Part shown: positions 31,289 to 53,721 of the stretch, piece by piece | Layout: each line of letters starts with the position of its first letter | Numbering within the stretch: the stretch's first letter is position 1 | DNA from: Paramecium tetraurelia | Lineage: Eukaryota > Ciliophora > Oligohymenophorea > Peniculida > Parameciidae | NCBI RefSeq assembly: GCF_000165425.1 | Contig: NW_001798995.1 | Coordinates: 163,108-227,107, forward strand | DNA: 64,000 nucleotides | Direction: 5' to 3' | Program-made: the position numbers and the translations under genes | Notes under the pieces: generated by a model | The model's input: only the letters and a program-made list of their open reading frames with translations | Database searches by the model: none | Told to the model about the DNA's origin: nothing

Positions 31289-33501
31289 TCAATTCAATTA
31301 AAGACATTAATATGGATTTTTAATTCCCTATTAAACTTTTTCTATCATCTGTTCTCTAAATTAATTCAAAGCCACTCTTACATCTTTGCACTTTTTTATA
31401 GCAATTTCTATTAATTAATATGATTAATATACATTCAAGAAGTGGCTGAAGATCTTTCAATGCTCTATCTTTAACATCTCCAAACCAACTTTAAATATAA
31501 ATTCCATTCTCTGGTTGTAATTAAAAGTTTTCAGGCATATTGTCAACAATAATAACTTTGGATAGATTTTTATTTAAAATTGAAAGATCCTTAATAATAT
31601 AAATCTAATTCAATACTTTGATGTAAACTTCATCTTTAAAAACAGTTTAATCTCTATACAGTCTTTATTGAACAACTTCATTTTTGTCTATTATGTCTAT
31701 TATAAAATTAGCATAATCTGGCAAAGCTGCAGTGAAAATTACAATGTCATAATATTTTGATAAAGCTTCTAAGAATTCTTCAGCGAAAGGTCTAACTAAA
31801 AATTATCCACCTCCTTTCGGAAACTAATTATTCTATAATTTAATTACTTCTTGATAATGCACCAATGTTTCATCCAAATCTAGAACCAAAGTATACTCTT
31901 TTTGATTTCCATTTCCCACCTTTCCCATTTTTTGAGGAATCAATTTTTCTATTAAACTACATAGTTTTCTCTATTGGGCAAGAAATTAATCTAAAGTATT
32001 TGCTATGTTTGAAATATTCAATTGAATTTCGGGACGAACTATTTCGTCAATCCTTTTAAACTATCATATTGATTAAAAAAATTACATTAATCCTAAAATG
32101 GACTTGATAATAAAGTTATTTTTCTGTAATCCTTGGCTTCCTTTAGTGCTTTATTTTCTAGAATTCTAACATCTAAGTTCAATTCTTTGCTTTATAGAAT
32201 TTTAAACTTAATGATTAAGTGTGGTTCCCTGCAATACTTAGAAAACATAAAGATTGCTATTCAAAATATATTGGATAAGGTTTTTGACATTATGGTCTTC
32301 ATTTCTATCCTGATCTTAAGATTCACTTATTAATATAAAATTAGCCTAGGATTCATACAATAAGGTCTCAAGTATCTTTGGCTCAATTTTAAATAAATAT
32401 TCACTCTACAAATAATAAAAGATATTTACGTTTTATCTCTCGTTAATCTAAGTTATTAAATTTAATAGTTAGTCACTTTTTTAAATCAAATTGGAGTAGG
32501 TTGAACTTTCAATCAGATGGAAAATGTCATTCCATAATTGTTCTTTTTCAAGGAGTAACTTAATTATGCTTTATTGAAATGTTTAATCATTGCACTAAGA
32601 ATAATTGTTTGAACTATCTCCTTTTAATTTTGGAGAATTGAGAGGTGAAATGTTGATAACCTTTTCCATATTCTTCTTGCTTGAAGATTATTTAGATTAA
32701 ATTGTGTTATCTAATTTTTATTTTAGACTGTTGAAAGATTCTAAATATGATTTATTAATCATTTGTGGGTATGTTTTTTTCGAACTGCTGTTTTGATTTT
32801 TTGTATTCAAATTTTAAGGTGCGTTTTTCTGATTACTATTTAGGAGCATATTAATTGTATTGATATTCTCATTGTTAATTGTATTTTGACGTATAGGGGT
32901 GGAATGCTTTTAGTTATTCTATTTAGTTAGTTGATTAAGGGTATTTTAACAACTTTTTAAATTTCCTTTTGAATTTGAAGAGGAAGAAGACTAATCATTT
33001 TTCTTGTTATATTGATAATAGAGATTTTGGAAGTATCGATGATCCAACTCTCTATTCTATTCTGGAGCAATAAATGTTGATTTCAGAAAGGTTTCATTGT
33101 TTTTAGGGGTATTTTATTTGACCAAATAACTAGTTCGACTTGAAACTAAATATATTGGATATTAAATACATTAGCCATCCCCTTTGTTATCACAAATCTA
33201 ATTTTCTTTTTTTTTAAGTACATTTTATCCAAACAACTATGTTGTAGCTTTGTTAACTTCATCCTAAACCAAATTGTTTAAAAACTATTTAACTTTTTGT
33301 GGATTGGAATAGTCAAGTCTAGCTGTTTAAGGCCTGTTACTAGGGTTCTTGGGAGTAAAATCTATTTTGATAATTAAAATTCTTACTTCTATTATCAGGT
33401 TGATTTTCTTTAAACGATCCACGGGATTTATTGGAGCATGATGACACATCAAGTATATTTAAATAGTCTGACGCTTTTGAGTTGAGTTTGCTACAAAACA
33501 T
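31289..33501 (-). CDS. SCP/FCP1-type (NIF) phosphatase with long N-terminal extension
   Basis: A HAD-fold serine phosphatase of the small CTD phosphatase/Dullard family, which acts on RNA polymerase II tails or on membrane-pathway substrates. The catalytic motif is VLDLDETLVH (DxDxT present). It is followed by PFAEEFLEAL, FTAALPDYAN, a YRDQT loop, VIIVDNMP and the C-terminal NGIYIQSWFGD and DLQPLLEQI. Introns of 25 nt (near 31450, just after QPLLE), 33 nt (near 32070, before IDEIVRPE), 24 nt and 25 nt fit. Ahead of the domain lie about 450 residues rich in Asn, Ser, Gln and Lys, beginning MFCSKLNSK. The extension is predicted disordered; its role is unknown. The frame stays open upstream of ATG 33501 without another Met. 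Confidence 0.85.
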
Positions 33502-51310: not shown

Positions 51311-52573
51311 ATGGAAACAGTTTCTTAACAAATAAAACAATTGAATCAGAAAAATCAAGAACTCTCAGTGTTAGAAAACAGAATAGTCTAATTGAAATAA
51401 TAATTGAATTTGCAATAAGCAAACAATAATATCTTGAAAACTAAAGTAGATAAGATAGTTCACTCCAAAAAACAAAAGTTTTATGATCAAATGAAGGTAA
51501 CTTCATTACTAACAGAATTTAGTTGAACCAAATACTCCAGGATAATGCTGTAAATAATGACTAAGCTTAATATATGATTCAAAGAAATAAAGTGTTATTG
51601 AATGAAGAACTAAGACAAACTAAATAGGATATGTTGGAAGAAAAGTATCTTCAAACCTAATAGATGAAATAAAAATTGGATTTAGACATGCTTATTAACT
51701 AAAAAAAAAGAGATCAATAGCTATTAGAGAAGTAGTAATAATATGCAAAAGTACTCAAATCATTTTATTTGATTAGATTTCAGAGTGGGAATTTAATCTT
51801 AAACTTGATTTAAAATAAAGACAGATAGATAAAATTGACAGAATCAGATCAGAAGAAAAGGAGTTCAAAGAACAATTAGCAAAAAGAATATTAGAATAAC
51901 ATCAGCTATGTGAATAATTGACCAATCAAGAATAACGATTGTTAAGGTATCTTTTATTTGCAACTTATGAAGCAAATTAAAACATTCGCAATAGTTCGGA
52001 ACCTCACTTAAAAATGATCTAACAACTGCAATGCATTTAAGTATAAAGGAGTATAAAAATAATATGTCTGTGTCAATGCCCACTCATGTTAAATCTTACA
52101 GTTCTTCCAAATTACCAAAGGAACAATAACGTAGTCCTTATGCCCAATTGCCTACTATGCTCATGATGAAAATAAATGGATAAATCAATAAGAGCTAAAA
52201 TGAAAACTCTTTTTTTCGTGAAAATATTATGAAAGGGTATCAATTTTCTTTGCCTTCTCTTTGTAAGCCTTCCTTTACAGAATAGTAACAACAAGTCGAA
52301 CGGCTTTATTAATCCAAAACAGTGAAGAATAGTAAGTCAGATTTGCAGTAGATACTGAATTATTGTGATTCTACAGGTAAAATAGAACAGAAATAAAAAC
52401 ATCGTATGAATTAAAGCGAAATATTGAAAAACTAGGCGAGTACTTATTCGATAAAGGAAAATAAATAGAACTAACAAGAGTAAGAGTAAAGTAAATAGTA
52501 ATAATCAGAAGAAATGAAAATTAATAAGGATGAAGAAATATCGAATCAGAATTAATAAGAAGAATAACAATGA
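51311..52573 (+). CDS. coiled-coil protein, 394 aa
   Basis: ATG 51311 (METVSQQIKQLNQKNQEL), three introns of 26 nt each, TGA 52571-52573: exactly 395 codons. Residues 1-200 are an almost continuous coiled coil of Gln, Glu, Lys and Leu. The C-terminal half is Ser/Asn/Gln-rich with long glutamine-rich patches written in TAA and TAG. No enzymatic motif is seen. It may be a cytoskeletal or ciliary component, a guess from structure only. Its 3' flank overlaps the region holding the SECIS element of the opposite-strand selenoprotein gene, whose stop is 155 bases away. Confidence 0.72.
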
Positions 52574-52627
52574 TGATATGTATTTATTAAAATTTTAATA
52601 AAATTTTATAACAGATTTTAAATCATT

Positions 52628-52695
52628 AAAAGATCCTATATTTAAATCAGAGTCCAACTATAATATTTAAGAAGGATTCTTCATTTTAGGTCTTG
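52628..52695 (-). promoter_or_regulatory. SECIS element of the selenoprotein W gene
   Basis: Read on the minus strand, 34 bases past the stop codon, the RNA can fold as a eukaryotic SECIS. Helix I is AAGACCUA with UAGGAUCUU (one bulged A). The non-canonical core is UGA in AAAAUGA facing GAU in UGAUU, giving U.U, G.A and A.G pairs. Helix II is AGAAUCC with GGACUCU (one A.C mismatch), topped by a loop that contains AAA. Order, spacing and the two key motifs are those needed to recode UGA as selenocysteine. The fold was drawn by eye. Confidence 0.8.
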
Positions 52696-52728
52696 AGATG
52701 ATCTAAAACGACATGGTTATGTATTCTT

Positions 52729-53072
52729 TCAATTTTCAATAAAATTGACAAGCTTTTTCATAGCTTTCTCTGCTGAAAATGCTCCGAAAGGACCATCTCC
52801 ACGTAATTTAGAGTGAATTAGTTCAGATTTAGAATCCTTTCTAGTCACGGTTATTTCCATTTCTCCAGTTATTTTATCTTAGGATTTGCTTGTCACTTCA
52901 GCCTGAGGATATAATGATTTAATGTATTGTTAGGCCAAGTTGTATTGAGACCAATATCCTCATCCACCACAATAGGTGATATGAACTGGATAATAAATGA
53001 ATAGGAAATACCTTTGAATTATTTATCTTTGGAAGTTTTAAGTGTTGAGATGTTCTCTGGTAATTTGATCAT
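52729..53072 (-). CDS. SELENOW: selenoprotein W with in-frame UGA (Sec)
   Basis: A thioredoxin-like (Rdx family) selenoprotein. ATG 53070-53072 (MIKLPENISTLKTS), a 26-nt intron, and TGA 52729-52731 give 106 codons. The reading frame contains one TGA at 52960-52962 within VHITYCGG-TGA-GYWSQY, exactly at the CxxU redox motif of SelW (CGAUGYKSKY in animals). Sequence on both sides of the TGA is conserved SelW: LAQQYIKSLYPQAEVT, then ITGEMEITVTRKD and ELIHSKLRGDGPFG. TGA therefore encodes selenocysteine once and stop once in the same mRNA, in a genome where TGA is the only stop. A SECIS lies just downstream. No Cys replaces the Sec. Confidence 0.9.
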
Positions 53073-53248: not shown

Positions 53249-53721
53249 TCAAGCTACAAGTATGCATGCTCCTCCAACTGCTTTGATTCTTCTCTCTGCA
53301 GTTTTGCTAAAGAACTTAGCTTTGACAACGACTGGTTAATTTGGAAGTCTGCCTTTTCCTAGGACTTTGAAATAACCAGCCTTGGTGACATCGATAACAG
53401 CAGCTTTGTCCTTTGATTTAGCATATTTTTCTCTGGTTTCATCAGTGACAAGTGACCATAATTTGTCAATATTGACTACAGGTCTGTGGAGTGTGTTTTT
53501 TTTCAAATGGAAATGTCTCATACCGGTCTAGAGGAGGAATAGGAGGAGATGGGTACTTTTTGGAAATAACCTGGATGGTATTTATTGAAATTGATTCTAT
53601 GATGTGTTAAACCTCCTGAAACACCTCTACCACTTGGATGTTTTCTGTGTTTGCCAACTCTACCGTAACCATGGCATACATGTCCTCTCATTTTTCTACA
53701 CTTTCTCAATCTGCTGACCAT
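53249..53721 (-). CDS. RPL27A: 60S ribosomal protein L27a (uL15)
   Basis: A large-subunit ribosomal protein. ATG 53719-53721 ([18 protein letters not shown]), one 29-nt intron, TGA 53249-53251: 148 codons, the usual eukaryotic length. Hallmarks are [32 protein letters not shown], then [20 protein letters not shown] and the Gly/Ala-rich end [10 protein letters not shown]. The intron sits between GYFQK and TGMRHF and is very pyrimidine-rich (repeats of TCCTCC), unlike the AT-rich introns of the neighbours. Conservation at the junction makes this the best proof of the short-intron rule in this window. Confidence 0.97.

Follow-up and report, generated by a model that had tools for sequence, protein, structure and literature searches.

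The window, i.e., the whole 64-kb stretch of Paramecium tetraurelia DNA that was analyzed (G+C content of 27%), includes a putative selenoprotein W gene, designated SelW1, which is located on the minus strand at positions 53072-52729 and has a product of 105 amino acids. Exon 1 (53012..53072, minus strand) begins with the ATG at 53072 and aligns with the intron-less SelW2, a paralogue found elsewhere in the genome, and exon 2 (52729..52985, minus strand, including the stop codon) matches the Pfam Rdx domain (PF10262) with an E of 1e-10 and 42.1 bits, against a cut-off of 22.6, when C is put for U. The exons are separated by a 26-nt GT..AG intron (52986..53011, minus strand), through which this ATG reaches the frame of the selenocysteine (Sec) codon and which an earlier, sequence-only reading of this DNA did not describe. 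The intron is required to join the frames and is supported by the lack of an intron at that place in SelW2, and introns of 24, 22 and 25 nt are present in SelW3, SelW5 and SelW6, respectively. This is a genome with closely related gene pairs, and the introns of its SelW genes, of 22-26 nt, are short.

The in-frame TGA that is read here as Sec lies at 52960..52962 of the minus strand, in the context VHITYCGG-TGA-GYWSQY, and is the only one in the frame before the terminal TGA (52729..52731, minus strand), forming the motif CGGU at residues 26-29, near the N terminus. The sequence-only reading had proposed a TGA at the CxxU position of this very frame, and one is indeed present at 52962-52960, in a gene with an Rdx match. 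On the 3' side, a convergent open reading frame on the plus strand (52031..52573) faces the selenocysteine insertion sequence (SECIS) of SelW1, with the SECIS core lying 73-111 bases beyond its stop at 52573, which makes the earlier estimate of an antisense element 55-120 bases past the neighboring stop about right. The upstream tandem neighbor (53249-53721, minus strand) is presumably a gene for the ribosomal protein uL15 (L27a), a resemblance seen by eye and in more than one frame.

A protein search of the genome (69 Mb in 231 contigs) returned ten pieces that correspond to six SelW loci, all six of which have a TGA at the CxxU position. Five of these genes are intact, i.e., SelW1 in the window, SelW2 and SelW6 (both on contig C195), SelW3 (C182) and SelW5 (C203), and all of them end in TGA, with the CxxU codon being the sole in-frame TGA before the stop and falling in one shared alignment column. 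The sixth locus, SelW4 (G000:C165, L012, near 455650-455890), is a pseudogene that serves as a control, given that it has no ATG, a frameshift and UAAU in the place of UGAU, even though the TGA at the CxxU position has been kept. The conserved genes of this genome are rich in in-frame TAA and TAG codons, and the match to selenocysteine synthase (SecS), for example, has 15 of them and no TGA over 354 positions.

The existence of this decayed copy raises the question of whether the TGA of SelW1 is simply a nonsense mutation or a frame error, beyond which no translation takes place. This is hardly credible, given that five diverged copies have retained their reading frame, peptide sequence and SECIS, and that SelW3 and SelW5 differ downstream of the TGA by a dN of 0.065 and a dS of 1.43, the peptide past the TGA being therefore under purifying selection. 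Less can be learned in this respect from the remaining nine SelW pairs, with synonymous sites at or near saturation. It is just as improbable that the TGA is removed within a short intron. A 28-nt GT..AG stretch does span the TGA of SelW1, but it is the only one there, and the reading frame would be lost with its removal. In the SelW set of five, in-frame GT..AG stretches of 18-34 nt over the TGA are found only in SelW3 and SelW6, at different places, and the excision of the codon would also entail the loss of the active site.

Eukaryotic SECIS elements have a quartet formed by AUGA and UGA strands, a helix II, and an unpaired A motif about 10-13 nt further on. The core of the SelW1 element, made up of AUGA, helix II, the loop and UGAU, is located at 52646..52684 of the minus strand and starts 47 nt past the stop, with the AUGA strand at 52684-52681, the AAAUA of the apical loop at 52664..52668, 12 nt after the AUGA, and the UGAU at 52649-52646. 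The full element, with a long helix I, covers 52608..52720 (minus strand), its outermost pair, counted from the stop, being +11/+123 or +22/+116, depending on the fold. The AUGA lies 47, 49, 52, 52 and 48 nt from the first base of the stop in SelW1, 2, 3, 5 and 6, respectively, and each of these genes has a helix II of 10-12 positions and an AAAUA 12-13 nt after the AUGA, followed by UGAU or UGAA. Around the core, helix I has 20-28 pairs, depending on the fold, and begins 11-22 nt past the stop. We take this element to be similar to the form I eukaryotic SECIS, with its UGA/GA quartet, internal loop and helix I. The length of helix II and the distance from the AUGA to the AAA are those of eukaryotic SECIS elements, whereas the long helix I of the SelW folds, so close to the stop, sets it apart. 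The Rfam models missed the element, and the scan of the window and of the six loci returned no SECIS family, either at the gathering score or up to an E of 10, and nothing else over the gathering score.

Taken alone, the 141-nt stretch of SelW1 folds no better than its shuffled copies (z of -0.96; 29/200 as stable), and its helix II, with 8 of 11 pairs formed, is the weakest of the five. A helix II hairpin as stable was obtained in 171, 13, 90, 4 and 18 of 1000 shuffles for SelW1, 2, 3, 5 and 6, and a helix I duplex as good in 2, 0, 13, 0 and 4 of 1000 for the five intact genes, against 166 of 1000 for the pseudogene. It is therefore the comparison of the paralogues, rather than the fold of a single copy, that places the SelW1 SECIS beyond chance. 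In the five elements, 92.7% of 96 cells are paired and 13 of 20 pairs present a two-sided change, figures from an alignment, registered by hand and padded with N, that leans toward structure given that bulged bases were omitted in two rows. None of 500 shuffles attained any of the five measures used, and slid alignments performed far worse. The elements were not aligned by MAFFT alone, these hand-registered, padded sequences being used instead.

In a test with less bias toward structure, a covariance model built from the four other SelW paralogues gave the SelW1 element the top rank among 12 matches in the 64 kb, with 26.2 bits and an E of 0.0044, against 20.8 bits for the runner-up. The best match to the SECIS model after SelW1 (about 21 bits; 32244-32311, minus strand) is in an open frame and is probably due to chance. 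A simple rule that describes the core finds three cores in the 128 strand-kb of the window, including that of SelW1; the other two, SECIS-like cores on the minus strand at 32302 and 18089, are inside open reading frames and were set aside as chance occurrences. The prediction that a SECIS with a quartet, two helices and an AAA-bearing loop would be found past the final TGA is thus borne out by the AUGA/UGAU strands, the AAAUA, helices I and II, the covariation and the leave-one-out rank. Relatives lacking the element, which had been put forward as an objection, were not encountered among the intact copies, given that the core is kept in 5/5, and the same search of the region 3' of the stop found no core in the SelW4 pseudogene.

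Most of the machinery for Sec insertion is also encoded in this genome. Only one of 16 matches is over the cut-off in the search for tRNA-Sec, a tRNA-Sec with a UCA anticodon (64.3 bits against a gathering score of 47), and the seven of the other 15 that were checked are all tRNA-Ser; the absence of tRNA-Sec, another objection raised beforehand, is thus not the case. SecS is present with an E of 4.7e-107, and the eEFSec domain is over the cut-off at two places, a piece of one of which has eEFSec (5izk) as its best match in the PDB (E of 2.9e-57). Selenophosphate synthetase (SPS; G000:C162:409136-410537) was recovered in two pieces, with E values of 1.2e-28 and 6.8e-24, neither of which reaches the 125 bits set as cut-off for the whole protein, and carries Cys (KGCGCKVP). 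A PSTK-like P-loop kinase on contig C138 is a weak match, with 24.2 bits on TIGR03575 (cut-off of 382) and an E of 1.7e-10 for Pfam KTI12.

The proposed check of the machinery thus succeeded for tRNA-Sec and eEFSec, while SBP2 was not recognized. Thirty of 36 L7Ae matches were read by eye and were ribosomal or snoRNP-like, none being SBP2-like, and a search of the genome with an approximate SBP2 sequence, run with no positive control, gave no match. This gap is not fatal, given that the ribosomal protein L30 is also able to bind SECIS elements, as stated in the available text of PMC3706390. Given the conservation of the CxxU position, the selection past the UGA, the covarying SECIS and the Sec machinery, the locus in the window is very probably a functional selenoprotein W gene. 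The combination claimed by the sequence-only reading, of SelW with a Sec-UGA, a stop-UGA and a 3' SECIS, is backed by the conservation of the paralogues, the covariation and the presence of the machinery in the same genome.

SelW is not the only such family in this genome. In the families that were searched, to which the list is confined, 11 intact genes have a TGA at the expected Sec position, i.e., five SelW, two SelT-like genes and four thioredoxin reductases (TrxR). The Rdx-domain scan of the genome gave 10 matches, from which two further genes with a TGA at the U of CTS-U emerged, on contigs C224 and C6, which we take to be SelT1 and SelT2, the domain having been tested for SelT1 only. 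The scan for thioredoxin reductases gave 25 pieces, and the reading of 12 loci resulted in four genes that end in GC-U-G or GC-U-A, namely TrxR1 (C24), TrxR2 (C200), TrxR3 (C14) and TrxR4 (C56). The final codons are TGC TGA GGT TGA in TrxR1-3, with GCT in the place of GGT in TrxR4, which means that the Sec-UGA and the stop-UGA of these four genes are separated by 6 nt, as UGC-UGA-(Gly/Ala)-UGA. In TrxR4, the family match and the end of the gene share one frame, and the ends of TrxR1-3 are reached through inferred GT..AG introns of 23, 23 and 26 nt, with other choices available in TrxR3.

Exactly one SECIS core was found within 200 nt of the stop in 11/11 intact genes, against 2 to 25 per 1000 tries in shuffled copies of these regions, figures which are descriptive, given that the core rule was written after most of the cases had been seen. 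The spacing from the AUGA to the AAA is 12 or 13 nt in all 11, and the distance from the stop to the core is 28 and 34 nt in the SelT genes and 115, 129, 129 and 60 nt in TrxR1-4. In a second test of the less biased kind, a SECIS model built from the five SelW genes gave the top three places among 14 matches in 39 kb, with E values of 0.0003-0.005, to TrxR3, SelT1 and TrxR2, none of which was in the training set. The same model gave an E of 1.6 for SelT2 and of 1.2 for TrxR1, and missed TrxR4. SelT2 and TrxR1 were also outranked by a wrong-strand match of 21.0 bits in L074, a non-Sec locus of the TrxR type. The distance from the Sec codon to the stop is 6, about 230 or about 395 nt across the 11 genes. 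Glutathione peroxidases (GPx) were rejected as Sec genes, given that the four N-terminal pieces that were read all carry Cys (VNVACSC), with the weakest matches, L027 and L028, being left out, and the search of the genome for Sep15/SelM found none.

A further feature of TrxR1 (L073, minus strand), TrxR2 and TrxR3 (L075 and L076) is a GC-rich hairpin of 9-11 bp, in an AT-rich genome, which begins 0-3 nt past the stop UGA and 6-9 nt past the Sec UGA. These hairpins have energies of -15 to -22 kcal/mol, and none of 1000 shuffles was as stable, while folding just past the stop produced no such hairpin in TrxR4, SelW or SelT. They are placed in the same way as the selenocysteine redefinition elements described in the available part of PMC8704476, and, as a guess, they might cause ribosomes to pause at the Sec codon. 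The experiments of PMC3737529, on the other hand, showed no change when a structure adjoining the Sec UGA was deleted.

In the SelW1 message, then, the same triplet, UGA, looks to be used once for Sec and once for the stop. The sequence-only reading presented this locus as a compact case of the problem, and, while the problem does exist here, the TrxR genes, with UGAs 6 nt apart, are more compact. One possible solution is a rule of spacing, by which a UGA less than about 50 nt from the SECIS core would be unreadable as Sec, and the SelW1 stop is 47 nt from the core and its Sec codon 278 nt. The stops of all the SelW genes (47-52 nt) and of the SelT genes would agree with this, together with a minimum of 51 nt that is quoted in the accessible text of PMC3737529. 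In TrxR1-4, however, 60 to 129 nt separate the stop from the core, with the Sec codon just 6 nt further away, and the same source (PMC3737529) mentions that the doubling of the spacing in a Euplotes TrxR caused no change. In addition, a Condylostoma TrxR has its Sec right before its SECIS, and the short 3'UTRs of ciliates could by themselves yield such spacings (PMC4967479). Spacing was consequently dropped as a general rule for telling the stop from Sec once the TrxR genes had been found, with UGAs 60-135 nt from the core, and it is an unlikely explanation.

The bases or the structure that flank each UGA might also set its meaning, which is only slightly more plausible. The Sec UGA is followed by G in 9/11 genes (SelW and TrxR) and by T in the two SelT, and the stop by A in 7/11 and by G in 4/11, while the strong hairpin just past the stop of TrxR1-3 would be a structural signal of this type. 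Nonetheless, G follows both UGAs in SelW5, TrxR1, TrxR2 and TrxR4, the hairpin is missing from TrxR4, SelW and SelT, and the base after the Sec codon in SelW and TrxR opens a codon for Gly (or Ala). Neither the distance to the SECIS nor the next base is likely to be decisive, given that the UGAs of four TrxR genes are only 6 nt apart.

The likeliest decider between the two UGAs, as a candidate held with somewhat less than even confidence, is a kinetic, one-shot delivery of Sec. The factors bound to the SECIS would load eEFSec with Sec-tRNA(UCA), which would outcompete eRF1 at the first UGA, and eRF1 would prevail at the second. Termination would be the default, with the SECIS complex supplying a single Sec-tRNA and being reloaded too late for the UGA that follows, and in SelW and SelT the closeness of the stop to the SECIS core (28-52 nt) may add to this effect. 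Sec insertion is termed non-processive in the title of a work cited in PMC4967479, whereas for some SECIS elements insertion is processive according to work cited in PMC8704476. A stricter version, put forward more tentatively and rather doubtful, is that order alone would count, i.e., that the first UGA on a SECIS-bearing message would be Sec and the next a stop, even one codon later, as in the UGA-Gly-UGA of TrxR. Here, neither the codon, the next base nor the distance to the SECIS would matter, and the TrxR1-3 hairpin and the long SECIS stem that starts close to the stop of SelW and SelT would be adaptations making the switch sharper.

The earlier statement that selenoproteins are known from ciliates holds for Tetrahymena and Euplotes, and Sec in a genome with UGA as the sole stop had, on the portions available of these sources, already been described in Tetrahymena and in Spironucleus. 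The SelW of the diplomonads Spironucleus barkhanus/salmonicida (PMC2874811) likewise has a UGA at the Sec position and UGA as the sole stop, and the question of stop or Sec is posed there. According to the text available, no canonical SECIS was detected in that gene, whereas the Paramecium SelW genes have a SECIS with covariation. Tetrahymena thermophila (PMC2612030, PMC7409322) also combines a UGA-only stop, a Sec-tRNA, 3'UTR SECIS elements and a Sec-type TrxR. Its six selenoproteins comprise two GPx, three TrxR and SPS2, while Paramecium has Sec in SelW, SelT and TrxR, with Cys in the SPS that is listed as a selenoprotein in Tetrahymena (PMC2612030) and in the four GPx genes that were read, against two Sec GPx there. 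Euplotes crassus (PMC3737529), another ciliate with SelW and TrxR bearing SECIS elements, is described as having position-dependent Sec insertion, although in that organism UGA is Cys or Sec, and not a stop, whereas in Paramecium it is Sec or stop.

SelW is widespread in the eukaryotes that have selenoproteins, as indicated in the accessible part of PMC2375036, and no published account of these Paramecium genes appeared among the matches listed in the open-licence literature on Paramecium and ciliate selenoproteins. Sec in genomes with UGA as the only stop is already known, and what this SelW family with its SECIS elements does is add to the few organisms of this kind. The genome offers, in addition, a built-in test set of 11 intact genes, whose Sec and stop codons lie 6, about 230 or about 395 nt apart, plus one decayed copy, which makes the discrimination between stop and Sec on one message directly testable.
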